A stretch of 11,532 nt of DNA from Nitrospira sp. (lineage in GTDB: Bacteria; Nitrospirota; Nitrospiria; Nitrospirales; Nitrospiraceae): the NCBI GenBank assembly GCA_015904075.1, contig JABMDH010000018.1, positions 1 to 11,532 on the forward strand. The letters run 5' to 3'. Shown one piece after another: positions 1-11,532 of this stretch; the stretch's first letter is position 1, and the number at the start of each line of letters is the position of its first letter. Both the position numbers and the translations under genes were made by a program. Below the pieces are notes generated by a model, which ran no database searches, was not told the origin of the DNA, and saw only the letters and a list, made by a program, of their open reading frames with translations.

Positions 1-862
1 CGGCATCGACCGGGACAAGATGCAGGCGGACGATTCGGTCGCCAAAGACCTCATGGGGAACACCCTGAGCGGCATGATGACCGGCATCGTGGAAGAAAAA
101 CCGAAGAACTCGGTCGGAACCCAGGCCTATCTCGACCGTATGAACCAGAATTACTTTGTCTGCGACGGCTGCGGATACATCGGGAAGGGCGAGACACCGG
201 TGAAGTGCCCGGTCTGCGCATCCGAGGGCGACAAGTTCAAACAGGTTGACAAGACGATTTTTGAGGCGGCTGCCAAGGCCGAAGGCGAGCTGGAAACCGA
301 TCTGGCGTACGACGACGTTCCGATGCAGTGGACCAAGGACGCCAAGGAAGCGATCCGCGCGGTTCCCGCCGGCTTCCAGCGCCGCCGCGCCAAAGCCAGA
401 ATCGAAAAGAGCGCCCGAAAGCTCGGCATGACGACGATTACGCTCGAATACGCCGCCCCCACGATCAAGGAAGCGGCGGACGAAGACTATCAGCCCATTT
501 TCGCCAACAAGGGCACCGGCACCGCGCCGGCAGCTGAAGAAAAGCTGGCCACCGTAGCCAATGGGACGAACGGCGAGCATGCGAACGACAATAGCGCCGC
601 CAAACCGGAAGAAACCTCTCCGTTTACCTGGAGCGCTGACGCTCAGGCCAGACTGGAGCGGGCTCCGGAAGGATTCATGCGCGACTGCACCAGGGCGTTG
701 ATTGAGAAGCATGCGGAGAAAATCGGAGCCACCCTCATCACGGCTGAAGTGGCCAACGAAGGCATCGAACAGGCCAAGGGTTACATGGCCGACGCCATGA
801 AGACGGGCAATCTGAAAGACATGATTGCCAATCTGACCGGTTCGAAGTCCGGGGCCAACTGA
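1..862 (+). CDS. Usp / rubredoxin-like / PCP_red fusion protein, copy A, C-terminal part (5' end outside window)
   Basis: The frame is open from the left edge (first full codon at base 2, GIDRDK before the Met at 20), so this is the tail of a larger protein; copy B shows the whole 696-residue form. Counting from Met20, a rubredoxin-like knuckle has Cys at about 48, 51, 63 and 66 (CDGC...CPVC), expected to bind Fe or Zn. Two PCP_red-like domains follow, at about 101-155 (QWTKDAKEAI..VP..FQRR..) and 203-255 (FTWSADAQARLERAPEGFMRD..). The linker between them is low-complexity (Ala, Asn, Gly, Thr, Glu) and is the fastest-diverging part against copy B. No membrane segment or signal peptide is visible, so a cytosolic place is inferred. 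The stop TGA (860-862) overlaps the next gene's ATG (862-864), implying translational coupling. The function is unknown: redox or tetrapyrrole binding is an inference from the domains. Confidence 0.9.
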   Translation, partial: GIDRDKMQADDSVAKDLMGNTLSGMMTGIVEEKPKNSVGTQAYLDRMNQNYFVCDGCGYIGKGETPVKCPVCASEGDKFKQVDKTIFEAAAKAEGELETDLAYDDVPMQWTKDAKEAIRAVPAGFQRRRAKARIEKSARKLGMTTITLEYAAPTIKEAADEDYQPIFANKGTGTAPAAEEKLATVANGTNGEHANDNSAAKPEETSPFTWSADAQARLERAPEGFMRDCTRALIEKHAEKIGATLITAEVANEGIEQAKGYMADAMKTGNLKDMIANLTGSKSGAN

Positions 863-2259
863 TGGGTAAATCGCTCCCGATGCTGAGCCTCCCCTCGTTG
901 CAGGGAGCGCTCGGGTCGCTTCAACAGCAGATCACGCAGTTCATGACCCCTACGCCGAAGGGCGAAGGAGTGTACGACGGCCGGACCGTCGATGACTTCA
1001 AGCCTTATCTCGTTGCGCTCAATCTGACGAAGCGCTGCAATCTCAAGTGCGATCACTGCTACCTCGATGCCACCACCAAATCGGCCGGCGGCGACGACGA
1101 ACTCTCCACTGAGGAGTGCTACAAACTCATCGATCAAATCGCTGAAGTGAATAAGGGCTGCCTGCTGGTCATTACAGGTGGAGAGCCGCTGGTCCGCCCC
1201 GACATTCTCGACATCGCCCGCCATGCGGTGAAACTCGGCTTCATGGTTGTCTTTGGAACGAACGGGATGCTCATCGATGACCGGATGGCCAAAACGCTGG
1301 TCGAGATTGGCGTCATGGGCGTCGGCATTAGCATCGACTCGCTGGATCCGGCCAAACACAACGCCTTCCGCGGTGTCCCGGGTGCCTGGGAAGCTGCTGT
1401 AGCCGGAATCGAGGCCAGCAAACGCAACGGCCTCCAATTCCAGGTCCATTTCAGCGCGCAGCCAATGAATTACACGGAACTACCAACGGTCATCGACTGG
1501 GCCCATCAACTCGGCGCCCGCGTCTTGAATGTCTTTTTCATGGTCTGCACAGGGCGTGGTGAAGAATTGACCGATATCACCCCGGCTCAGTACGAAGAAG
1601 TGCTCGGGTACCTAGTCACGTGCCAGGACAATTACAAAGGCATGCTTGTCCGTGCCCGCTGTGCGCCGCACTTCAAACGGCTGGCCTATGAAAAGGATCC
1701 GAATTCTCCGATTACCAAGGCCACCGGTTATATGGGCGGAGGCTGTCTTGCCGGCACGAACTACGCCCGTGTGACACCCAACGGTGAATTGACCCCGTGC
1801 CCCTATATGCCTCTCTCAGCCGGTAATGTCCGCCACAACAGCTTCGCCGATCTCTGGGACAAGTCGGACGTGTTCAATTCGTTCCGGTACCCCCAACTCA
1901 AAGGCAAGTGCGGCGATTGCGAGTACACCGATATCTGCGGAGGCTGCCGCGCCCGTCCCTATGTCGACCATGGAGACTGGCTGGACGAAGACCAGTGGTG
2001 TCTCTACACACCGAAAGGCGGCGAGAAAATCAAGGTTGCGTTCAATACGCCGGAAGAGTCCGAGGTAGCCTGGGACGACGCCTCGGCGCTCCGTCTCAGC
2101 CGCATCCCATACTTCCTTCGCGCCATGGTGAAAAAAGGGGTCGAGAAGCACGCCCGCGAGAATAACGTCCCTCTCATTACCATCGAGTTGATGGAAGAAC
2201 TCCGCAAGAAGCGATTCGGAAACGACGTCCCGGTCTTTAAATTCGATCGTGAACCGTAA
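862..2259 (+). CDS. Radical SAM/SPASM protein, NirJ/AhbC-like, with C-terminal PCP_red domain, copy A (intact)
   Basis: A 465-residue protein. The radical SAM cluster motif is Cys59-x3-Cys63-x2-Cys66 (RCNLKCDHC), followed by the GGEP SAM-binding motif at 106-109. The C-terminal auxiliary-cluster (SPASM-type) cysteines are at 295, 313, 350, 353, 359, 362 and 380. The stretch CGDCEYTDICGGCRARPY, then HGDW and the DEDQWC segment, matches the pattern known from NirJ, AhbC and AhbD, which modify siroheme-derived tetrapyrroles. Residues about 404-447 (WDDASALRLSRIPYFLR..) form an additional PCP_red-like domain, related to the C-terminus of BchB and not usual in NirJ. It should cleave SAM reductively and act as a cytosolic Fe-S enzyme; the substrate is unknown. 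Its ATG overlaps the stop of the Usp-fusion gene, so the two are probably made together. A peptide-modifying SPASM role is the main alternative. Confidence 0.93.
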   Translation: MGKSLPMLSLPSLQGALGSLQQQITQFMTPTPKGEGVYDGRTVDDFKPYLVALNLTKRCNLKCDHCYLDATTKSAGGDDELSTEECYKLIDQIAEVNKGCLLVITGGEPLVRPDILDIARHAVKLGFMVVFGTNGMLIDDRMAKTLVEIGVMGVGISIDSLDPAKHNAFRGVPGAWEAAVAGIEASKRNGLQFQVHFSAQPMNYTELPTVIDWAHQLGARVLNVFFMVCTGRGEELTDITPAQYEEVLGYLVTCQDNYKGMLVRARCAPHFKRLAYEKDPNSPITKATGYMGGGCLAGTNYARVTPNGELTPCPYMPLSAGNVRHNSFADLWDKSDVFNSFRYPQLKGKCGDCEYTDICGGCRARPYVDHGDWLDEDQWCLYTPKGGEKIKVAFNTPEESEVAWDDASALRLSRIPYFLRAMVKKGVEKHARENNVPLITIELMEELRKKRFGNDVPVFKFDREP

Positions 2260-2332
2260 CACGTGAGATGCAAAAAGTTCCGGCTCCCGGAGTCTTTCCT
2301 TATCCCTGACGCTTTACCCTTTCACGTTTCAC
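2256..2332. repeat. Imperfect inverted repeat between radical SAM gene and CopD-like gene, copy A
   Basis: The arms 2256-2277 and 2311-2332 pair at about 14 of 22 positions around a core ACGTGA/TCACGT. The left arm contains the TAA stop of the radical SAM gene. Inside the loop there is a perfect small hairpin, TCCGG (2279-2283), CTC loop, CCGGA (2287-2291), followed by a T-rich run, which could act as a weak terminator or attenuator. Copy B has a better-paired version at the same place. The spacer is 83 nt and the CopD-like ATG at 2343 follows 10 nt after the repeat, with no Shine-Dalgarno sequence visible. Confidence 0.5.
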
Positions 2333-2342
2333 GGCACTAGCG

Positions 2343-2852
2343 ATGGACGCTCTGGAAAGCATAGTCATCGATCTCAACACGCTGATTCCGATTATCAACC
2401 ATTGGTTTCATCTTCTCTCGGCAGTCATTTGGATCGGCGGGTTGGCCTTTCTCGTCATGGCAGTCACGCCCGGCCTGAAACAAGCCGTTGCGAAAGATCA
2501 GATCAAACCCATTACCGATGCGTTCTACCAGCACTACAAGAAAGTCGCCGGTATCCTCTTGCTCATCTTGCTATTCACCGGCGGTGTGAACCTCCATTAC
2601 GTCAACCAGGTCGTTACCTCGCAGACCGGCGCCGGCATACAGCACCATGCCAAATACCTCATGGTCTTCATGATCAAACTTCTTCTCGTGCTGGGCCTCC
2701 TGACGCTGTTTTTATACACAGTCATTTTCAAGTCAGACGACGAGACCGAAGAGGGGGAGTCCTATGAAGCCATCCCTTTCCAACGCGCCGCCCTCTGGAT
2801 GGGGTTTTTTATCATCCTCTGCGCAGCTGCCATGAAACATCTGCACCAGTAA
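2343..2852 (+). CDS. CopD/HemJ-like four-helix membrane protein, copy A
   Basis: A 169-residue integral inner-membrane protein. Hydrophobic segments lie at about 13-41, 67-83, 105-128 and 149-163. The first helix contains NHWFHLLSAVIWIGGLAF (His20, His23), which follows the H..L...W.GG pattern of CopD (copper resistance D) and the HemJ-type proteins. Other histidines are at 85, 101, 102, 165 and 167, and Lys112 sits in the third helix. In those families conserved His residues bind copper or heme. There is no signal peptide; helix 1 would serve as anchor. The start ATG is shared with copy B and no good Shine-Dalgarno precedes it; the sequence CACGGCACTAGC is conserved directly upstream in both copies. 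Placement after the radical SAM gene suggests a membrane partner, for example a heme- or electron-handling step. The exact function is not known. Confidence 0.88.
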   Translation: MDALESIVIDLNTLIPIINHWFHLLSAVIWIGGLAFLVMAVTPGLKQAVAKDQIKPITDAFYQHYKKVAGILLLILLFTGGVNLHYVNQVVTSQTGAGIQHHAKYLMVFMIKLLLVLGLLTLFLYTVIFKSDDETEEGESYEAIPFQRAALWMGFFIILCAAAMKHLHQ

Positions 2853-3053
2853 CGTCCTCCTCCTAGACCATTCCTTGCCAGCTATAGAGAGTAGTATTCG
2901 GCCTTACGGGAGGGAGGCACGTCTTCACAGACCCTGACTCTGGAAGCACGTCACAGCAGGCTTCGGTGAGGCGAGACTTGATCGAAAATCTGACTCATCC
3001 CCGTTCGGCCTTAACCGATATCGTGATCTTCCGACAATCCTGCCGGTCCACGC
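2853..3053. other. Convergent intergenic region, copy A
   Basis: This 201-nt spacer lies between the 3' ends of the CopD-like gene (plus) and the oxygenase gene (minus). I see no supported gene. Its right part, from about 2992, is well conserved with copy B (about 84% in a hand alignment running to 3061) and holds a short TCGG-CCTTAA-CCGA stem at 3005-3018. The left part is more divergent, with small indels. A bidirectional terminator is plausible but no clear GC hairpin with a T-run was found. Confidence 0.4.
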
Positions 3054-3713
3054 CTATCTGGATTGCTTTGAGCCGGAGCGCGCACGTTTGAAGACTCCCT
3101 TGAGACCGAAGTACCCGATAGAGTCTTTTAGATTTGAATAGAGCCGCTTGATGGGATTCATGTCCGGATTCGTCACATATTCCATTGTCAGGGCAATCCG
3201 CTCTTCTCCCTCTGCCAATGGTGTGACGGCATGCCACAGCTTATCACCGTTGAAAATCACCATGTCGCCGGGCTCAGTCACCAGTTCAAGATGGCGCGGC
3301 TGTTTCGATGGGTCGTCCTTAAACAGTTCGCACACCAACTTGCAGTGAGTCGATCGGTCGACCAACCCCATCAAGATCGTGTAGCGCGCCCCTTTGTAGT
3401 ACGACGTATCGTAATGAAACCCGATGTGATCGCCCGGCTCGGTATAGTAATAGAGCGCGCACGAATGCGGATCATCATCCGGACAGAACATCAATTTGGC
3501 GTCAACGAGCCCACTCAAGAACGACTTGAAGGGGTCCGACCGGTAGAGATCTAGAAACCGGGGAGCCTTCTCCTGCACCGTATAATAGCTGACGCTCCCT
3601 CCCTTTTTATGACCCGGGATATAGTTCCGATTGAGCTCCCCCTTGACTCCCTGAGCCTGAGGCACCAGCGTATCCTCGACGAATGCTCTCGGCAGGAATT
3701 GTTTGATGACCAA
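3054..3713 (-). CDS. Fe(II)/2-oxoglutarate-dependent oxygenase, copy A, N-terminally truncated or frame-disrupted
   Basis: The frame shown gives 219 residues from a TTG codon at 3713, and aligns with copy B from its residue 35 onward at very high identity. The catalytic facial triad is present: His100 and Asp102 (FHYDTS) and His161 (LWHAVTP), with Arg172 as probable 2-oxoglutarate ligand. The metal ligand is Asp rather than Gly, so it should be a hydroxylase-type enzyme, not a halogenase. Upstream of the TTG, homology to copy B's first 34 residues stops abruptly; the frame runs only some 22 codons further to a TAA and has no evident Shine-Dalgarno. An ATG at 3796-3794 preceded by GGAG lies in another frame and would need a frame change near 3711 to join. 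The product may therefore be shortened, use a new start, or be non-functional. The substrate is unknown. The core domain call is secure, the start is not. Confidence 0.75.
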   Translation of the reverse strand: MVIKQFLPRAFVEDTLVPQAQGVKGELNRNYIPGHKKGGSVSYYTVQEKAPRFLDLYRSDPFKSFLSGLVDAKLMFCPDDDPHSCALYYYTEPGDHIGFHYDTSYYKGARYTILMGLVDRSTHCKLVCELFKDDPSKQPRHLELVTEPGDMVIFNGDKLWHAVTPLAEGEERIALTMEYVTNPDMNPIKRLYSNLKDSIGYFGLKGVFKRARSGSKQSR

Positions 3714-3962
3714 ACGCCTTCGTATGCGGACACGAACTTGAGCAAAGGCATCGAAGGTAACTCGGGACGAGACGCCTTACTGGCGATTGAAGACATTCTC
3801 CGGTCACGCCGGCCCTCCCCCACTTCTTCACAGACGGAGGAACCACGCGTAACATCAGCCAGTTAGTCAAGTCGCTCGTCGATGATCATCGGGCAGGGAA
3901 CAGGAAACGCCTCCCATTCTTGCCATGATGTATATCCTCTGACCATTGGGCCCTTCACCTTC

Positions 3963-3992
3963 TTGCATTCTAGTTCAAGCCAGTGCTATCAT
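3963..3992 (+). promoter_or_regulatory. Candidate sigma70-type promoter for module copy B
   Basis: TTGCAT (3963-3968) and TATCAT (3987-3992) are separated by 18 nt and resemble -35 and -10 boxes. They would place transcription start near 3999 and give a leader of about 94 nt. The ATCCG/CGGAT inverted repeat (3991-3995, 4005-4009) overlaps the expected start and could be an operator or leader hairpin. This is a hand match only. Confidence 0.3.
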
Positions 3993-4070
3993 CCGCATTC
4001 TTTACGGATCTGTTAGCACGTCAACTATTTGGTTTTTCACACGATTGTGGCGTTTCGCCTGTCTCATGAT

Positions 4071-4092
4071 AGCGCCCTAAGGAGGCGCCTCC
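4071..4092 (+). promoter_or_regulatory. Strong Shine-Dalgarno within overlapping short hairpins
   Basis: AAGGAGG (4079-4085) lies 7 nt before the ATG at 4093 and fixes the start of the Usp-fusion gene. It is embedded in two mutually exclusive stems: GCGCC (4072-4076) with GGCGC (4084-4088), and GGAG (4081-4084) with CTCC (4089-4092). The 12 bases GGAGGCGCCTCC (4081-4092) form a perfect palindrome. Either stem could partly mask the ribosome binding site. Confidence 0.6.
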
Positions 4093-6183
4093 ATGTATAA
4101 GACTATCTATATCCCGGTTGATAACTCCGATCATTCCAATACGGCCGTAGATATCGGCGTCCAGATGGCCAAGGCATTTGGCTCCAAGATTGTCGGCAGC
4201 CATGTCTATGCCGCCAAGATGCACGACAAACGCTTCAAGCAGATGGAAGCAGGCCTGCCCGAGGAATACCACGACGAGAAGGAACTCGATCGCCAACGCC
4301 AGATTCACGACTCGCTGATCACCCGCGGGCTTCAGATCATCACAGATTCTTATCTCGACTACGTCGATAAGAAATGCAATGAAGCCAATCTGCCGATCGA
4401 ACGCCGATCGCTCGAGGGTCGCAATTGGAAAGTCCTGGCCGAAGACATCAACACCAACGGGTACGAGCTCGTCATCATGGGCGCGTTGGGGGTCGGCGCA
4501 GTGAAGGACAGTGTCATCGGCAGCAACACAGAACGTGTGGTGCGCCGCGTACGCAACTCCGATATGTTGATTATCAAAAACATGCAGCCGATGACGGTCG
4601 GCAAGATCGTGGTGGCCGTGGACGGCAGCCCCTATTCTTTCGGCGGCCTGATGACGGGACTTCAGCTCGGCAAAGCCTTAAACATGCCGGTGGAAGCGAT
4701 TGCGGCGTTCGACCCCTATTTTCACTATGCGGCGTTCCACAGCATTTCCGGCGTGTTGAACGAGGAGGCCGGCAAAGTCTTCCGTTTCAAGGAACAGGAA
4801 AAGCTGCACGAAGAAATTATCGACAGCGGCCTGGCTAAGATCTACCAGTCGCACCTCGATATCTCCCGTGAAATTGCACAGGCTGAGCAGACCGACGTCA
4901 AGACGACCTTGCTCGACGGCAAGGCCTTCGAGAAGATCATTCAATACGTGCGGAAAGACATTCCGGCCTTGCTCATCGTGGGCCGTATCGGCGTCCATAG
5001 CGACGAGGATATGGACATCGGCAGCAACACGGAAAATCTTCTCCGGAGCGCGCCCTGCAATGTGCTCATCTCGAATCGAAAATACGTGCCGCCGATCGAT
5101 ACCCAGGCGGAATATACGATCGCGTGGACCGAGGAAGCCTTGCGCCGGATGGAAAAGATCCCGGTCTTTGCGCGCGGCGTGGCCAAGACAGCCATTCACC
5201 GGTACGCCATTGAAAAAGGTCACACCATCATCAGCAACACCGTCGTGGACGCAGCGGTCGGGCATATCCTGCCTAAAGGTGCCATGGATGCCATGCGCGC
5301 ACTTGGCGGCAACTTAGATGCAGCCGGCATCGACCGCGACAAGATGCAGGCGGACGAAGCCGTGACGAAAGATCTCATGGGCCCGACGTTAAGCGGGATC
5401 ATGACCCAGATTGTCGAGGAAAAGCCGAAGTCCGTCGATGCCTCTACGCAAGCCTACCTGGACCGCATGAGTCAGAACTACTTTGTCTGTGACGGCTGTG
5501 GCTACATCGGTAAAGGTGATGCACCGGTCAAATGTCCGGTGTGCAGCGCGGATGGGACGAAATTCAAGCAAGTCGACAGGAAGATTTTTGAGGTGGCGGC
5601 GACGGCTGAAGGCGAACTGGAAACAGACCTCGCGTACGACGATGTGCCGATGCAATGGACCAAAGATGCCAAAGAAGCGATCCGGGCAGTACCGGCAGGA
5701 TTTCAACGGCGCCGCGCCAAGGCCAAAATTGAAAAAACCGCGCGCAAGCTGGGGATGACGACGATCACGCTCGAATATGCGGCCCCGATGATCAAAGAAG
5801 CGGCCTCAGAAGACTACACACCCATCTTCGCCAACAAGGGCACCGGGACCTCCGCCGAAGCGACGGCCACACTTGCCGCCGCGAATGGGAACGGATCGAA
5901 CGGAAACTTCGCGCGCGAAGCGGGCACCGGCCACGTGACGCTCGATCCCTATACCTGGACGGCTGAGGCACAGGCCCGGTTGGAACGGGCTCCGGAAGGC
6001 TTCATGCGGGACTGCACGAAGGCCCTGATCATCAAACATGCGGACAAGCTCGGCACGACCCATATTACGGCTGAAGTGGCGCATGAGGGCATCGAACAGG
6101 CGAAAGGCTATATGGAAAACGCCATGAAGACCGGCAACCTCAAAGACATGATTGCCGACCTGACTGGCAAAGCGAAGTCCTAG
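4093..6183 (+). CDS. Usp-Usp / PCP_red / rubredoxin-like / PCP_red-PCP_red fusion protein, copy B (complete)
   Basis: A 696-residue soluble protein with a strong Shine-Dalgarno. Usp domain 1 (about 1-163) carries the nucleotide-binding pattern G-x2-G-x9-G-S at 130-144 (GALG...GS). Usp domain 2 (about 167-330) has VDGSPYS near 177 and a second such motif at 297-311 (GRIG...GS), so both should bind ATP. A PCP_red-like domain follows at about 342-392 (AWTEEALRRMEKIPVFARG). Then comes a rubredoxin-like knuckle with Cys466, Cys469, Cys481 and Cys484 for Fe or Zn. Two more PCP_red-like domains lie at about 519-572 and 619-672, separated by an Ala/Asn/Gly-rich linker. PCP_red is known from the C-terminus of the BchB subunit of dark protochlorophyllide reductase; its triple occurrence with Usp domains is unusual. 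A role as a nucleotide-sensing, redox or tetrapyrrole-binding partner of the downstream radical SAM enzyme is an inference. Copy A matches it over the visible part. Confidence 0.93.
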   Translation: MYKTIYIPVDNSDHSNTAVDIGVQMAKAFGSKIVGSHVYAAKMHDKRFKQMEAGLPEEYHDEKELDRQRQIHDSLITRGLQIITDSYLDYVDKKCNEANLPIERRSLEGRNWKVLAEDINTNGYELVIMGALGVGAVKDSVIGSNTERVVRRVRNSDMLIIKNMQPMTVGKIVVAVDGSPYSFGGLMTGLQLGKALNMPVEAIAAFDPYFHYAAFHSISGVLNEEAGKVFRFKEQEKLHEEIIDSGLAKIYQSHLDISREIAQAEQTDVKTTLLDGKAFEKIIQYVRKDIPALLIVGRIGVHSDEDMDIGSNTENLLRSAPCNVLISNRKYVPPIDTQAEYTIAWTEEALRRMEKIPVFARGVAKTAIHRYAIEKGHTIISNTVVDAAVGHILPKGAMDAMRALGGNLDAAGIDRDKMQADEAVTKDLMGPTLSGIMTQIVEEKPKSVDASTQAYLDRMSQNYFVCDGCGYIGKGDAPVKCPVCSADGTKFKQVDRKIFEVAATAEGELETDLAYDDVPMQWTKDAKEAIRAVPAGFQRRRAKAKIEKTARKLGMTTITLEYAAPMIKEAASEDYTPIFANKGTGTSAEATATLAAANGNGSNGNFAREAGTGHVTLDPYTWTAEAQARLERAPEGFMRDCTKALIIKHADKLGTTHITAEVAHEGIEQAKGYMENAMKTGNLKDMIADLTGKAKS

Positions 6184-6297
6184 TCTTCTCGCTGTTCACT
6201 GTTGATTCTCAAGGTTGAACGACACGGGGATGACAAGGCGATCGGCATTGTAGTCGGGCCGCTTCAACACTCATAATTCACCATTCGCCATCACACC
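6184..6297. other. Spacer between Usp-fusion and radical SAM genes, copy B
   Basis: This 114-nt non-coding spacer has no counterpart in copy A, where the same two genes overlap by one base. I see no good Shine-Dalgarno before the ATG at 6298 (the preceding bases are CGCCATCACACC) and no convincing promoter. It contains a weak GTTGAA/TTCAAC pairing. Its TTCACCATTCGCC-like wording resembles the other spacers of the window. Confidence 0.5.
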
Positions 6298-7377
6298 ATG
6301 GGTAAATCGCTTCCTATTTTCAACGCTCCCTCTCTGGCCGGCGCCGTTGGAAATCTTCAGCAACAAATCAGTCAGTTCTTCACGCCCGTGCCGACCGGAG
6401 ACAGTCCCTATGACGGACGGACCGTCGATGACTTCAAGCCTTATCTGGTTGCCCTGAACCTGACCAAACGTTGCAACCTCAAGTGCGACCATTGCTACCT
6501 CGACGCCACCACCAAATCCGCCGGCGGAGACGACGAGCTGACCACCGAAGAATGTTATACCCTCATCGACCAAATCGCTCTGGTGAACAAGGGCTGCCTC
6601 CTTGTCATCACCGGCGGCGAACCACTAGTGAGGCCGGACATTCTGGACATCGCGCGCCATGCCGTCAAACTTGGTTTCATGGTGGTCTTCGGCACCAACG
6701 GGATGTTGATCGACGATCGCAAGGCCAAAGAACTGGTCGAGATCGGCGTGATGGGCATGGGCATCAGCATCGATTCCCTCGACCCGCAAAAGCACAATCG
6801 ATTCCGTGGTGTGCCAGGCGCCTGGGAAGCAGCGCTGGCCGGCATTGAGGCCTGCAAACGGAATGGGTTGGCTTTTCAAGTGCATTTCAGCGCGCAGCCC
6901 ATGAACTACCAGGAACTGCCGACGGTCATCGAATGGGCACACCAGCTTGGGGCCAAGGTCCTCAATGTCTTCTTTATGGTCTGCACCGGACGCGGCGAAG
7001 AGTTGACCGATATTACCCCGGCTCAGTATGAAGAAGTGCTCAGCTATCTGATCGATTGCCAGGACAATTACAAGGGCATGCTCGTTCGAGCCCGCTGCGC
7101 GCCGCACTTCAAACGGCTGGCCTACGAGAAAGACCCCAATTCACCGATTACTAAGGCCACCGGCTATATGGGCGGCGGCTGTCTTGCCGGCACCAACTAC
7201 GCCCGTGTGACGCCCAACGGAGAATTGACCCCGTGCCCCTATATGCCCCTCTCCGCCGGCAATGTCCGCCAGAACAGCTTCGCCGACCTCTGGGACAAAT
7301 CGGACGTGTTCAATTCGTTCCGGTATCCCCAGCTCAAAGGCAAATGCGGCGATTGCGAATACACCGATATCTGCTGA
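6298..7377 (+). CDS. Radical SAM/SPASM protein, NirJ/AhbC-like, copy B, up to an in-frame TGA in the CGGC motif
   Basis: This frame encodes 359 residues and then meets TGA at 7375-7377. It aligns without gaps to copy A: radical SAM cysteines 59, 63 and 66, GGEP, and SPASM cysteines 295, 313, 350, 353 and 359 are all kept. At residues 360-361 copy A has GGA GGC (Gly-Gly) and copy B has TGA TGC (stop or Sec, then Cys). The same frame stays open downstream to a TAA at 7693-7695, giving the identical 466-codon length. If translation stops, the product lacks the last two SPASM cysteines and the PCP_red domain and is probably impaired. If the TGA is read as selenocysteine, the motif becomes C-U-C-C. 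Most differences from copy A upstream are synonymous, so the gene was under selection until recently. No Shine-Dalgarno is visible before the start. Confidence 0.8.
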   Translation: MGKSLPIFNAPSLAGAVGNLQQQISQFFTPVPTGDSPYDGRTVDDFKPYLVALNLTKRCNLKCDHCYLDATTKSAGGDDELTTEECYTLIDQIALVNKGCLLVITGGEPLVRPDILDIARHAVKLGFMVVFGTNGMLIDDRKAKELVEIGVMGMGISIDSLDPQKHNRFRGVPGAWEAALAGIEACKRNGLAFQVHFSAQPMNYQELPTVIEWAHQLGAKVLNVFFMVCTGRGEELTDITPAQYEEVLSYLIDCQDNYKGMLVRARCAPHFKRLAYEKDPNSPITKATGYMGGGCLAGTNYARVTPNGELTPCPYMPLSAGNVRQNSFADLWDKSDVFNSFRYPQLKGKCGDCEYTDIC

Positions 7378-7695
7378 TGCTGCCGTGCCCGTCCCTATGT
7401 CGACCACGGAGACTGGCTGGACGAAGACCAGTGGTGTCTCTACACACCGAAAGGTGGCGAAAAGATCAAGGTAGCCTTCAATACGCCGGAAGAATCCGAT
7501 GTGCCCTGGGATGACGCGTCAACGCTCCGCCTCAGCCGCATCCCCTACTTCCTTCGCGCCATGGTAAAAAAAGGGGTCGAGAAGCACGCCCGCGAGCACA
7601 ACGTCCCGCTCATTACCATCGAGTTGATGGAGGAACTCCGCAAAAAGCGATTCGGCAACGACGCTCCGGTCTTTAAATTCGATCGTGAAACGTAA
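7378..7695 (+). pseudogene. In-frame continuation of radical SAM copy B after the TGA: end of SPASM plus PCP_red domain
   Basis: Read in frame after the TGA, this segment gives CCRARPYVDHGDW... and the PCP_red-like domain (WDDASTLRLSRIPYFLR..), nearly identical to copy A residues 361-465; a 60-nt sample differs at 2 positions. It ends at TAA 7693-7695. There is no frameshift or further stop. A GTG at 7501 could restart translation to give a 64-residue free PCP_red domain, but no ribosome binding site is evident there. It is either the dead 3' part of a broken gene or the rest of one protein if the TGA is read through. Near-perfect preservation means the stop, if real, is recent or tolerated. 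Confidence 0.7.
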
Positions 7696-7774
7696 CACGT
7701 GAGACGTAACAAGTTCTGGCTTCCCGATTCTTTGCTTCTCCCTGACGTTTCACCTTGTACCTTACACGTGTCAC
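7692..7774. repeat. Inverted repeat between radical SAM gene and CopD-like gene, copy B
   Basis: The arms 7692-7713 and 7753-7774 pair well around the core GTRACACGTG, with a further GTA-CAAG match when one base is gapped. The left arm contains the TAA stop at 7693-7695; the right arm ends 10 nt before the CopD-like ATG at 7785. It is the counterpart of the repeat at 2256-2332 in copy A, with sequence changes in both arms. As RNA it would put a stem-loop between the two genes. Confidence 0.55.
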
Positions 7775-7784
7775 GGCACTAGCA

Positions 7785-8294
7785 ATGGACGCTCTGCAAA
7801 GTATTGTCATCGATCTCAACCAGCTGGTTCCGATCATCAACCATTGGTTTCATCTGCTCTCGGCCGTCATTTGGATCGGCGGGTTGGCCTTTCTTGTCAT
7901 GGCGGTCACGCCCGGCCTGAAACAGGCCGTCGCAAAAGATCAGATCAAGCCCATTACCGATGCGTTCTACCAGCACTATAAAAAAGTCGCCGGCATCCTC
8001 TTGCTCATCTTGCTGTTCACCGGCGGCGTCAACCTCCATTATGTCAATCAGGTCGTCACCTCGCAGACCGGCGTCGGCATACCGCACCATGCCAAATACC
8101 TCATGGTTTTGATGATCAAGCTGCTTCTCGTACTGGGCCTCCTGACATTGTTTCTGTACACCGTTATTTTCAAGTCAGACGACGAGACCGATGAAGGAGA
8201 GTCCTATGAAGCCATCCCGTTCCAACGTGCCGCCCTCTGGATGGGATTTTTCATCATTCTCTGCGCAGCTGCGATGAAACACCTACACCAGTAG
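7785..8294 (+). CDS. CopD/HemJ-like four-helix membrane protein, copy B
   Basis: A 169-residue protein, nearly identical to copy A with a few conservative changes (for example Asn12-Thr13 to Asn-Gln, and Phe109 to Leu). The four hydrophobic helices, the NHWFHLL...W.GG signature with His20 and His23, and His85, His101 and His102 are all kept. I chose the ATG at 7785 because it aligns with the copy A start. An in-frame TTG at 7755 would add ten residues but lies inside the inverted repeat and lacks a ribosome binding site. It should be an inner-membrane protein that may bind copper or heme through its histidines. Preservation of this gene, while the upstream radical SAM gene has a stop codon, argues that copy B still has some function. 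The precise role is unknown. Confidence 0.88.
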   Translation: MDALQSIVIDLNQLVPIINHWFHLLSAVIWIGGLAFLVMAVTPGLKQAVAKDQIKPITDAFYQHYKKVAGILLLILLFTGGVNLHYVNQVVTSQTGVGIPHHAKYLMVLMIKLLLVLGLLTLFLYTVIFKSDDETDEGESYEAIPFQRAALWMGFFIILCAAAMKHLHQ

Positions 8295-8498
8295 CGTCTT
8301 TCCTCCTCAACCGTTCCTCGCCAGCGATAGAGAGTTGCGTTCGACCTTATGGGAGAGAAGGTGCGGGGAGGCACGCCTTCACAAACCCTGCCTCAGAAAG
8401 CATGGCACAGTTACGGCTGCACCCGATCAAGGGTCAGACTCATCCCCACTCGGCCTTAACCGATACCTTGCTCTTCCGACAATCTTACTGGGTCACGT
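8295..8498. other. Convergent intergenic region, copy B
   Basis: This 204-nt spacer is the counterpart of 2853-3053. No gene is supported. The block from about 8437 to the oxygenase stop is conserved with copy A, including the TCGG-CCTTAA-CCGA stem; the rest has diverged with small indels. A shared transcription-termination role for the two converging units is possible. Confidence 0.4.
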
Positions 8499-9260
8499 CT
8501 ATCTGGATTGCTTTGAACCGGAGAACGCACGTTTGAAGACTGCTTTGAGACCGAAGTACCCGATGGAGTCTTTGAGATTTGAATAGAGCCGCTTGACGGG
8601 ATTCATGTCTGGATTCGTCACGTATTCCATTGTCAGAGAGATCCGCTCCTCTCCCTCTGCTAATGGCGTAACGGCATGCCACAGCTTATCGCCGTTGAAA
8701 ATCACCATATCGCCGGGCTCGGTCACCAGTTCAAGATGGCGCGGCTGTTTCGATGGGTCGTCCTTAAAAAGTTCGCACACCAACTTGCAGTGCGTCGATC
8801 GGTCGACCAGCCCCATCAAGATCGTGTAGCGCGCCCCTTTGTAGTACGACGTATCGTAATGAAACCCGATGTGATCGCCTGGCTCGGTATAGTAATAGAG
8901 TGCACACGAATGTGGATCGTCATCCGGACAGAACGTGAGCTTCGCGTCGACGAGCCCACTCAAAAACGACTTGAAGGAGTCCGACCGGTAGAGATCTAGA
9001 AACCGGGGAGCCTTTTCCTGCACCGTATAATAGCTGACGCTGCCTCCCTTTTTATGGCCCGGGATATAGTTCCGATTGAGCTCTCCCTTGACTCCCTGAG
9101 CCTGGGGCACCAGCGTATCCTCGACGAATGCTCTCGGCAGAAACTGCTTAATGACCAGAAACTCATTCTGATCCCAATACTCACGGCGAAGGCGTTCAAT
9201 GTCCAATCCTGCCACTGCCCGCTCGACTGCTTCTGCCACAACACCTGCTTGCCCCGTCAT
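8499..9260 (-). CDS. Fe(II)/2-oxoglutarate-dependent oxygenase, copy B (complete)
   Basis: A 253-residue soluble enzyme of the 2OG-Fe(II) oxygenase superfamily. After an N-terminal helix-rich segment (1-34), the double-stranded beta-helix core carries His134 and Asp136 (FHYDTS), His195 (KLWHAVTP) and Arg206 as expected iron and 2-oxoglutarate ligands. The family oxidises its substrate with O2 and 2-oxoglutarate, releasing CO2 and succinate; the substrate here cannot be told. ATG at 9260 is supported by AAGGAG (minus strand, plus bases 9272-9277) 11 nt upstream. The gene runs toward the CopD-like gene and is 108 nt downstream of lolA on the same strand, with an inverted repeat between them. 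Its presence at the same place in both module copies suggests linkage to the module, but it is on the opposite strand and could be independently regulated. Confidence 0.9.
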   Translation of the reverse strand: MTGQAGVVAEAVERAVAGLDIERLRREYWDQNEFLVIKQFLPRAFVEDTLVPQAQGVKGELNRNYIPGHKKGGSVSYYTVQEKAPRFLDLYRSDSFKSFLSGLVDAKLTFCPDDDPHSCALYYYTEPGDHIGFHYDTSYYKGARYTILMGLVDRSTHCKLVCELFKDDPSKQPRHLELVTEPGDMVIFNGDKLWHAVTPLAEGEERISLTMEYVTNPDMNPVKRLYSNLKDSIGYFGLKAVFKRAFSGSKQSR

Positions 9261-9282
9261 ATCTCACATCACTCCTTGAGAC

Positions 9283-9345
9283 AATGGGTCAACCGTCAAT
9301 CGTGAGGAATTTGTCTCTTTCCCCATCGTTTGACGCTTGACCATT
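9283..9345. repeat. Imperfect inverted repeat upstream of oxygenase copy B, downstream of lolA
   Basis: The left arm 9283-9302 and right arm 9327-9345 pair at about 17 of 20 positions (core words GGTCAA and CGTCAA against TTGACG and TTGACC), with a 24-nt loop. It sits after the lolA stop and just before the oxygenase Shine-Dalgarno on the minus strand. It could end lolA transcription or fold in the oxygenase leader. No T-run typical of an intrinsic terminator follows it. It also contains repeated TTGAC words. Confidence 0.5.
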
Positions 9346-9368
9346 GACGTCCCCATGTCGTCTTAGGC

Positions 9369-10076
9369 TTACGGTCCATTCAACACTGGAGCCTTGACAA
9401 CTTCGACGCCTGGCGGGGCTTTGAAATCGAACACCTCGTTCCCCAATCCGGCATTCGGCTTCAACCCGGAAAACTCAAACGTGGCCACATTGCCGCTGAT
9501 CTCGTACAACGACACGGTGCGAAGAAAATACGTCTTGGGGAATACTTCCACGACGATCCGTTGAAGATTCCTCGATGGCTCATGCTCCTTGGACTTAGGA
9601 AACAACGTGATCAGCCGAACTCCACCGGTTCCCCGTTCGTTCCCTGTCGTCGGTTCGACATCGAACGATTGGTCCAAACTCGCTGCCCCCTGTAGAAGCT
9701 CCAATGGCGCCTGGGATGCCGCCATCTGTGTCAATTTTCCGACCAATACCTGTTTGTGCTCTGGTACGTAGACCCTGACATCGTCCCCATTTACATAGAT
9801 TTCTTCGTGCGCGGGATCGATATAGTCCCACCGTAGCCGGCCCGGCTTCTTGAGATACACCTTGCCGGACGAGATCACCGGACGCTCGAACCCTTCTATC
9901 CTCGTCTTCTGGACGAAGTCCGCTTGGAGATCTTTGGTTTTTTCATATCGCGCCTGAATCTGCTTCACGACCTCACGGACCTCCTGAAACGCCTTGTCAT
10001 CGGGCGGTCCATCGGCTCCTATGGCCGGAGAACTCATCAGCAGGCTGCACAGGATGACACACCAGTAGCGATTCAT
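9369..10076 (-). CDS. lolA: Outer-membrane lipoprotein carrier protein LolA
   Basis: A 235-residue protein. The first about 21 residues form a signal peptide (MNRYWCVILCSLLM..., hydrophobic core, cleavage likely near AIGA). The mature part has the LolA pattern: an N-terminal helix (VVKQIQARYEKTKDLQADFVQKT), then SSGKVYLKKPGRLRWDY and YVPEHKQVLVG in the beta-barrel half. LolA is the periplasmic chaperone that takes lipoproteins from the LolCDE transporter to the outer membrane, so the organism has an outer membrane. The ATG overlaps the TGA of the upstream ftsK-like gene by 4 nt (ATGA at 10076-10073), so the two are co-transcribed and coupled. The pairing of an ftsK-type gene with lolA is a known arrangement in Gram-negative bacteria. 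It looks intact and single-copy in this window, marking the end of the duplicated module. Confidence 0.9.
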   Translation of the reverse strand: MNRYWCVILCSLLMSSPAIGADGPPDDKAFQEVREVVKQIQARYEKTKDLQADFVQKTRIEGFERPVISSGKVYLKKPGRLRWDYIDPAHEEIYVNGDDVRVYVPEHKQVLVGKLTQMAASQAPLELLQGAASLDQSFDVEPTTGNERGTGGVRLITLFPKSKEHEPSRNLQRIVVEVFPKTYFLRTVSLYEISGNVATFEFSGLKPNAGLGNEVFDFKAPPGVEVVKAPVLNGP

Positions 10077-11532
10077 ACTTCCGCAGCCCCGACCGGCCCA
10101 CGCCGGCCCAGCACTTCACGGCGTCCATCCCGCCCCGCCGCACCGACAATCCCCTCGGTCTCCATCTGTTCAATCATACGGGCGGCTCGCGGGTAACCAA
10201 CGCGTAACCGGCGCTGAATCAGCGAGGCCGACGCTTGCCCGGTCGTCAGCACCAGATCTTTGGCCTGTTCATACACCTCATCTTTTTCCGCTTCCTTGGC
10301 CGCCTCTTCTGATTGAAGCGATTGCAGCTCCTGATTATACGTCGGCAGCGCCTGTTTCTTGACAAAATCGACGACAGCACTCACATCGTCATCCGACACG
10401 AAAGACCCATGCAACCGCGCAAGCCGTCCGGTCCCGGAGGCCAGATACAGCATATCGCCTCGGCCAAGTAGCGCTTCCGCACCATTGGCATCCAAAATCG
10501 TCCGCGAGTCGGTCTTTGAAGACACCTGGAATGCAATACGCGCGGGGAAATTGGCCTTGATCAATCCGGTCAGTACGTCAACGGACGGCCGCTGCGTGGC
10601 CAGTACGAGATGGATGCCAGATGCCCGCGCCATCTGCGCAAGCCGTGCAATTTTATCTTCCACGTCCTTGGGAGCCACCATCATCAAATCCGCCAATTCA
10701 TCAATCATCACCACGATATACGGCAGCGGCTCAGGCGGCGTCGGGGTAGGCCGCATGCAACCAACCTCACCCTCAGCAATCGCCGTCTCACCGGCAGACA
10801 GCCGTTGCTCTTCTGAAAGAAACTGCATCGGCAGTTCCTGCTGCTCAACGGGCGGCACGGTCCGATCAGCGAACGCCTCATGCAAACCGGATACTTTTCG
10901 ATTATACGAATCAATATTCCGCACACCGGCCTCGGCCAAGAGCTTGTACCGTCGTTCCATCTCGGCCACGACCCACCCCAGCCCCTTGGCCGCTGACTTG
11001 GGATCGGTGATCACAGGCCGCAAGAGATGGGGAATGCCCTCATACGACTGAAATTCCAGCATCTTCGGGTCAATGAGTAACAGTTTGACCTCACTCGGTT
11101 TTGCGGAGAAGAGAATACTTAACAGCATCGTATTCAGGCTGACGCTCTTGCCGGCTCCGGTCGCACCGGCAACGAGAAGATGCGGCATGGTTTTGAGATC
11201 CGCGGTGACCGGTGCGCCGAAAATATCTTTCCCCAATGCCAAGGTGAGTCTCGATCGAGCCCGCGTGAAGGTCTCGCTCATCAAGACTTCCTTAAGAGAC
11301 ACCGTTTCACGAGATCGATTCGGCACCTCGATACCCACCACCGACTTGCCGGGCAACGGCGCAACGATGCGGAGACTTACGGCTTTGAGTGCCAGCGCCA
11401 GATCGTCGGCAAGACTGACGATGCGCGCCACTTTCGTGCCGGGCGCCGGTTCAAATTCATACATCGTCACCACCGGCCCCGGTCGCACCTCTGTCACCCT
11501 GCCGTCGATGCCAAAACTGGCCAGCGCCTTTG
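10073..11532 (-). CDS. ftsK: DNA translocase FtsK/SpoIIIE, C-terminal part (5' end outside window)
   Basis: The frame is open to the right edge (KALASFGIDGRV precedes the GTG at 11497), so the N-terminal membrane region lies outside. Counting from that GTG codon, Walker A is at 111-118 (GATGAGKS), Walker B at about 260-268 (YIVVMIDEL), and the conserved ATQRPSVDVLTGLIKANFPAR segment starts at 300. The winged-helix gamma domain at about 413-460 (LVLTTGQASASLIQRRLRVGYPRAARMIEQME..) is the part that reads KOPS polarity sequences. FtsK is a hexameric ATP-driven pump at the division septum that moves chromosome ends and activates XerCD recombination at dif. A stretch of about 56 residues (202-257) between YNRKV and PYIVV is rich in Glu, Gln and Pro and somewhat longer than in E. 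coli FtsK; it is probably a surface loop. It overlaps lolA by 4 nt. Confidence 0.93.
   Translation of the reverse strand, partial: KALASFGIDGRVTEVRPGPVVTMYEFEPAPGTKVARIVSLADDLALALKAVSLRIVAPLPGKSVVGIEVPNRSRETVSLKEVLMSETFTRARSRLTLALGKDIFGAPVTADLKTMPHLLVAGATGAGKSVSLNTMLLSILFSAKPSEVKLLLIDPKMLEFQSYEGIPHLLRPVITDPKSAAKGLGWVVAEMERRYKLLAEAGVRNIDSYNRKVSGLHEAFADRTVPPVEQQELPMQFLSEEQRLSAGETAIAEGEVGCMRPTPTPPEPLPYIVVMIDELADLMMVAPKDVEDKIARLAQMARASGIHLVLATQRPSVDVLTGLIKANFPARIAFQVSSKTDSRTILDANGAEALLGRGDMLYLASGTGRLARLHGSFVSDDDVSAVVDFVKKQALPTYNQELQSLQSEEAAKEAEKDEVYEQAKDLVLTTGQASASLIQRRLRVGYPRAARMIEQMETEGIVGAAGRDGRREVLGRRGPVGAAEV

Follow-up and report, generated by a model that had tools for sequence, protein, structure and literature searches.

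The locus described here raises the question of why one Nitrospira contig should carry, side by side and in diverged form, two copies of a gene set that is single in related genomes. The sequence analysed (the window) was the whole of an 11,532-nucleotide (nt) stretch of Nitrospira sp. (GenBank assembly GCA_015904075.1, contig JABMDH010000018.1, positions 1 to 11,532, forward strand). Four genes are involved: USP, a fusion of Usp, PCP_red and rubredoxin-like parts; RS, a radical S-adenosylmethionine (SAM)/SPASM protein; COP, a CopD-like membrane protein; and OG, a 2-oxoglutarate (2OG)-Fe(II) oxygenase. The suffixes _A and _B denote the first and second copies. The original prediction had described a tandem duplication of a four-gene module, had suggested dosage or two specialised versions as its reason, and had proposed module counts in relatives and gene trees as checks. 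The probable answer, reached below with moderate confidence, is that recombination between lineages produced a heterologous tandem merodiploid.

The direct repeat is confirmed in the window. The open reading frame (ORF) list and a direct-repeat scan gave USP-RS-COP-OG twice as collinear direct copies with identical order and strands, in agreement with the original prediction. Copy A begins before base 1 and ends at 3712, and copy B extends from 3713 to 9260. Copy A comprises USP_A (1..862, plus strand; the 3' part of the fusion, truncated by the window start and L002/L006-like in the locus set defined below), RS_A (862..2259, plus; 465 amino acids (aa), with a C-terminal PCP_red domain, intact), COP_A (2343..2852, plus; 169 aa, intact) and OG_A (3054..3713, minus; a TTG-start ORF of 219 aa). 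Copy B comprises a region upstream of USP_B that lies inside the repeat unit (3867..4092, plus), USP_B (4093..6183, plus; the full-length fusion of 696 aa, in which a rubredoxin-like domain is joined to two Usp and three PCP_red stretches), RS_B (6298..7695, plus; open for 359 aa up to an in-frame TGA at 7375-7377, in the CGGC of the SPASM region), COP_B (7785..8294, plus; 169 aa, intact) and OG_B (8499..9260, minus; full-length, 253 aa). The spacing between copies was 5324 (positions 1-106) and 5327 (119-418 and 619-840) in USP, 5436 in RS, 5442 in COP and 5445 in OG; the offsets first reported hold for RS and for the genes after it (5442-5445), and those for USP (5321-5324) are replaced by the measured pair. 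Nucleotide identity between the copies, per 100 bases, was 57-87% over 1-1600 and 83-97% thereafter, except for 76% at 2901-3000, in the COP-OG gap. Chance similarity is excluded by kilobases of homologous collinear coding sequence. Rfam and tRNA scans of the window found none, with no Rfam family at its gathering score.

The normal state of the locus was established from two overlapping sets. One held 79 genus genomes; the other held 80 loci (the best 80 of 135 confirmed stretches), of which 79 were labelled Nitrospira, Nitrospiraceae, Nitrospirae or Nitrospirota, with L027 alone labelled Nitrosospira. The genomes of the two loci used most below, L001 and L003, are among the 79. Exactly one RS match was obtained in all 79 genomes at E ≤ 1e-100, a threshold that a short second-copy fragment would miss; in two genomes the match spans only residues 1 to 189-236. 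Per locus, RS was found once in 80/80, COP once in 78 and USP once in 76; OG was single in 47 and double in one. As RS was single in every locus and every genome, the normal copy number is one, and the module count proposed earlier comes out as a single copy in 80/80 loci and 79/79 genomes.

USP adjoins RS in 76 of the 80 loci (the remaining four end too early) and COP adjoins RS in 78 (one ends too early and one lacks COP). Of the 78 COP-bearing loci, 48 have OG, on the opposite strand and 77-3111 nt from COP, 17 show none although 3 kb or more follows COP, and a further 13 end too early. USP-RS-COP thus forms the conserved unit, with OG as a less constant neighbour, and the four-gene module of the original prediction is better taken as these three genes with an adjoining one. 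In L001 and L003, USP, RS, COP, OG, LolA and FtsK each occur once with the flank as in the window, where LolA (9369-10076) and FtsK (10073 to the window end) form a single-copy flank in the same order (9369..11530, minus). The sole locus with two OG matches, L028, carries a second OG-like oxygenase gene at 670-1398, 13.7 kb from the usual OG.

The two near-complete units, of about 5.4 kb, are joined by a single junction at 3712..3713. In the alignment to L001, the closest relative, L001 10001-12849 corresponds to window 862-3712 and L001 7454 onward to window 3712 onward. The junction therefore fuses a point near the 5' end of OG (L001 12849) with the 3' end of the gene that usually precedes USP (L001 ~7454). 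That gene, full-length in L001 (5938-7608), encodes a B12-binding radical SAM protein whose best NCBIfam match is of slr0320 type (447 bits, under the 775-bit cut-off); window 3714-3866 (plus) is a remnant of it, reading as its final 50 codons and stop. OG_A lost the first 34 codons of OG_B at the same point. The parental regions (L001 12191-12960 in OG and 7001-7830 upstream) share at most 8 identical same-strand bases, and k-mer misassembly at the junction is unlikely for this reason. A microhomology near both break points, CAGAAAC, was not significant, as 7.85% of 2000 randomly drawn pairs of 40-nt segments matched as well. A tandem duplication of a normally single-copy locus is supported by these alignments.

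The ancestry of each part was estimated by painting the window in 200-base steps against the 80 loci. Positions 1 to ~1150 were closest to L002, L006 or L004, and ~1200-4850 were mostly nearest to L001, across the junction; after ~4850, and again after ~7000, L001 and L003 were about equally close. Between ~5900 and ~7000 the best relative reached just 48-88% per 200 nt, lowest in the USP-RS spacer. Two stretches were delimited accordingly: an L001-like one spanning the junction (1228..4870, right end approximate) and one without a close relative, from the 3' end of USP_B to the middle of RS_B (5900..7000, edges approximate). Within 1228-4900, 233 sites were shared with L001 only and 53 with L003 only; when the mostly noncoding 3713-4092, where L003 is far from both, was left out, the counts were 155 and 51. 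For 4901-5900 and 7000-11532 (minus 8292-8501) they were 212 and 221. The strain signal was unchanged across the junction, being L001-like on both sides.

The lineage switch in copy A falls within RS_A and is confined, as judged by stand-in relatives, to 1228-1232. Up to 1227 the window differs at closely spaced sites from a state common to L001 and L003, the next such site being 1294; from 1233 on, closely spaced sites set it against the state common to all four L002-type loci. USP_B was 96-100% identical to its seven best relatives (P0122-P0128) at residues 1-570 and 83-85% identical at residues 571-696. A further assembly sharing the mosaic of RS_A, RS_B or USP_B did not emerge: of the best 120 cluster representatives listed per search, none was close over the full length.

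Trees were built from 43 rows, namely the 41 of the 80 loci in which all four genes are full-length, and the two window copies. Copy A grouped with L006 in the 3' part of USP (support 93) and in RS 1-366 (95), and with L001 in COP and OG combined (99); in RS 367-690, copy A, L001 and L003 were together at 99. Copy B grouped with L001 and L003 in the 3' part of USP (99), and in RS 367-690 it fell inside a starred set of five rows, nearest to L041 and L056. A clade of A and B was rejected by the approximately unbiased (AU) test in the 3' part of USP (p 3.6e-8), RS 367-690 (p 0.003) and COP plus OG (p 0.003). The gene trees proposed with the original prediction thus give best relatives that differ by segment, with the A+B clade rejected in three of five segments. 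A mosaic score, which records change of the best relative between segments, was 17.3 for copy A and 9.3 for copy B (ranks 1 and 2 of 66). None of the 64 controls reached 10; four reached 5, and in two of the four copy A was one partner. On these comparisons both copies are shown to be mosaics of at least three Nitrospira lineages, with L001-like DNA running over the junction. The differences between A and B appear to come from a patchwork of lineages and not from slow specialisation of one duplicated set.

Codons differing between A and B were counted as synonymous or nonsynonymous in RS (153 and 39), COP (39 and 7), OG (37 and 6) and USP (101 and 66), and the earlier claim that most differences are synonymous was borne out in all four. 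The ratio of nonsynonymous to synonymous rates (dN/dS) between the copies was 0.04-0.10 in all parts. Over RS nt 841-1395, however, copy A had a dS of 0.087 to the single L001 gene and of 0.391 to copy B. Because RS_A is so much nearer to L001 than to RS_B, the A/B dN/dS cannot be read as post-duplication selection on both copies, and its low value mostly reflects selection in single-copy ancestors.

Each copy has one damaged gene, OG_A in copy A and RS_B in copy B. The TGA of RS_B sits inside the CGGC that is kept in all 80 loci. Window 7375-7380 differs from all 80 loci, which have GG at these positions, by two changes, at 7375 and 7378, giving TGA TGC in an otherwise open frame; such linked differences could be mutation, damage or read error. 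The portion of RS_B with the TGA is otherwise constrained (dN/dS to L001 0.038), which suggests that the TGA is recent or a sequence error.

The merodiploid could have formed as follows. Repeat-bearing DNA would have come from, or formed with, an L001-like strain, as a tandem array, a circle or a merodiploid arising in DNA uptake. Recombination would then have placed this molecule in the chromosome of a relative, where exchange with homologous DNA of other lineages would have replaced sections of each copy. A repeat-bearing molecule of an L001-like strain is the simplest account because the homology-free junction lies within the DNA of one strain, with the DNA of other strains on both sides. 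Two of the genes, RS_B and OG_A, already carry lesions, and a recombination event between the copies would suffice to remove either one; the merodiploid state would therefore be recent and probably transient.

Several results weigh against this account. The grouping of copy A with L001 was weakly supported in RS 367-690 (50) and RS 691-1395 (82), and a clade of A and B was not rejected in RS 1-366 (p 0.061) or RS 691-1395 (p 0.21). The identity range along the 3' part of USP and RS was unexceptional in the window, that of copy B being exceeded by 3 of 69 controls and that of copy A by 8 of 69. The left end of copy A lies outside the window, so that the unit is not closed on the left. A scan of viral_contigs for the junction gave 0 matches, although none was expected there, and metagenome and genome contigs were not scanned. 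Finally, the only duplicated sequence of the set also provides its two most mosaic sequences, a pattern that a chimeric contig would give as well.

An assembly chimera is accordingly the main rival. Reads of several co-occurring Nitrospira species would have been joined in one contig, giving the mosaic and perhaps the tandem order, and the arrangement would exist in no cell. None of the 79 genomes and 80 loci has the arrangement, the window copies take the top two of 66 places by mosaic score, and A and B share exact stretches of 69, 47 and 47 bases; the two differences 3 bases apart in the otherwise open RS_B could be a read-level error. Against this, the parental regions at the junction have no same-strand shared stretch longer than 8 nt, and closely spaced diagnostic sites (in the stand-in relatives) bracket the switch at 1228-1232, so that k-mer overlap is unlikely at both places. 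The strain signal is the same on the two sides of the junction, and the frames are open save for the TGA of RS_B and the cut end of OG_A. A chimera is considered unlikely on balance, with a chance that is nevertheless far from negligible.

The explanation given with the original prediction, an in-situ tandem duplication kept for dosage or as two specialised versions, was not supported and is considered improbable. It agrees with the low A/B dN/dS throughout, with the open frames of USP_B, RS_A, COP_A and COP_B, with the inclusion of the USP_B upstream region in the repeat unit and with the two of five segments in which the A+B clade is not rejected. It does not fit RS 841-1395, COP and OG, where the distance of copy A to the single-copy gene of L001 is smaller than its distance to copy B, nor does it agree with a nearest lineage that varies by segment, a damaged gene in each copy, and two copies in 0 of the 79 genus genomes.

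Recoding of the TGA as selenocysteine, which would make RS_B a specialised selenoprotein, is hardly credible: beyond the TGA, which has cysteine codons on either side, the ORF does remain open to the same C-terminal end, but all 80 loci have GG at the two TGA/TGC positions, the Rfam scan of the window gave nothing at gathering score, and the selenoprotein was rejected for the genus genomes searched, where SelB exceeded its curated cut-off in 0/79 (2/14 in controls).

The preferred heterologous merodiploid has a described counterpart. In Streptococcus pneumoniae, natural transformation yields tandem merodiploids of ~100 to 900 kb via a repeated element, according to the account of these structures in PMC3784515. 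As described there, the copies are adjacent and direct in the chromosome and able to carry different alleles, as the Nitrospira copies do, and the same account proposes pneumococcal merodiploids as room for the evolution of new traits (PMC3784515). Unlike these large, repeat-mediated structures (PMC3784515), the Nitrospira unit is 5.4 kb with a junction nearly free of homology, and DNA uptake is here a presumed step. The event would be of a known kind, in an unusual, possibly artefactual, mosaic form.

A more specific proposal is put forward tentatively. A cell may have taken up a tandem or circular 5.4-kb unit of another Nitrospira lineage, giving a two-allele merodiploid at a genus-core locus that was then reshuffled by further lineages. 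Two-copy states might in this way serve as a stepping stone for the trade of core-gene alleles between nitrifier species, with subsequent return to one copy.

The protein families of the unit were examined by profile searches. USP_B and RS_A carry PCP_red (PF08369) over the Pfam cut-off. This is the C-terminal domain of the protochlorophyllide reductase subunit BchB, solved in 2kru and 2xdq, and the PCP_red part of RS_A matched both (E 8e-4 and 5e-4, respectively). Unlike in BchB, PCP_red is here fused to Usp, rubredoxin-like and radical SAM parts, and full-length BchB models matched USP_B over their last ~50 positions only (67 bits, far under the 509-bit cut-off). PCP_red gave 11-12 matches per genome (E ≤ 0.001), or about five proteins by frame lengths, in each of 10 Nitrospira genomes picked from the 79, with examples at G001:C3:265766-268254, 313870-314571 and 327988-328281 and at L087:3116-4132 and 17465-18202; one Nitrospira protein of 338 aa has PCP_red as its sole Pfam match. 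Among 14 control genomes it was found in Synechococcus only.

The best NCBIfam matches of RS_A were NirJ2 and AhbD (TIGR04055 and TIGR04545; 324 and 310 bits over ~335 residues). RS_A shares the CNLKCDHC and CGDCEYTDICGGC motifs with these proteins and differs from them in the additional C-terminal PCP_red domain. Assignment as an AhbD haem synthase or as NirJ2 was rejected, both scores being under the curated 500-bit equivalog cut-off. Ferrochelatase and a HemG/Y-type oxidase were over cut-off, side by side, in all 10 of the picked genomes, which rules out RS as a missing haem synthase there and indicates that RS is dispensable for ordinary haem formation.

In COP, H20, H23, H85 and H168 were invariant in 26 sequences (both copies and 24 of the 78 COP loci), and four helices were predicted in a low-confidence model (mean predicted local distance difference test score, pLDDT, 58.6). 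COP_B was not accepted as CopD, its weak matches being under the curated cut-offs (20.4 bits against 32.1, and 36.3 bits against 195). Identity with HemJ (UPF0093) was likewise unsupported: COP_B was unmatched in the Pfam scan, and HemJ was over cut-off in 0 of the 10 genomes, with weak matches elsewhere in four.

For OG_B, Pfam scores were over cut-off for HalD (32.5 of 26), just under for 2OG-FeII_Oxy_3 (26.8 of 27) and under for WelO5 (21.3 of 27). In Fe(II)/2OG halogenases such as HalD, BesD and WelO5, the facial site has Gly or Ala in place of the carboxylate. OG was rejected as a halogenase in spite of its HalD score, as FHYD was present in 48 of 49 OG sequences, one being without a pattern match.

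Two genes upstream of USP, L001:5122-5898 encodes an MpqE-type methyl-plastoquinone methyltransferase (405.7 bits, cut-off 335). Methyl-plastoquinones are reported as the sole quinones of Nitrospira in PMC12324825. The USP-RS-COP unit is linked to quinones through this neighbour only by position. As a tentative suggestion, the unit may be a genus-core redox system for cofactor handling, in which the NirJ2/AhbD-like radical SAM protein and its Usp-rubredoxin partner share PCP_red and would act together with the CopD-like protein of the membrane on a tetrapyrrole or a related cofactor. A literature search on the USP-RS-COP unit found no paper in the library covered.

If the DNA is real, the window captures inter-lineage recombination passing through a duplicated locus in a nitrifier. 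The case also warns against an easy conclusion: two diverged copies in tandem, at low dN/dS, resemble conserved, specialised paralogs, yet the relatives found segment by segment show much of this divergence to be imported. Attention is also drawn to the USP-RS-COP unit conserved in Nitrospira and to the PCP_red domain that is multiplied in the genus.

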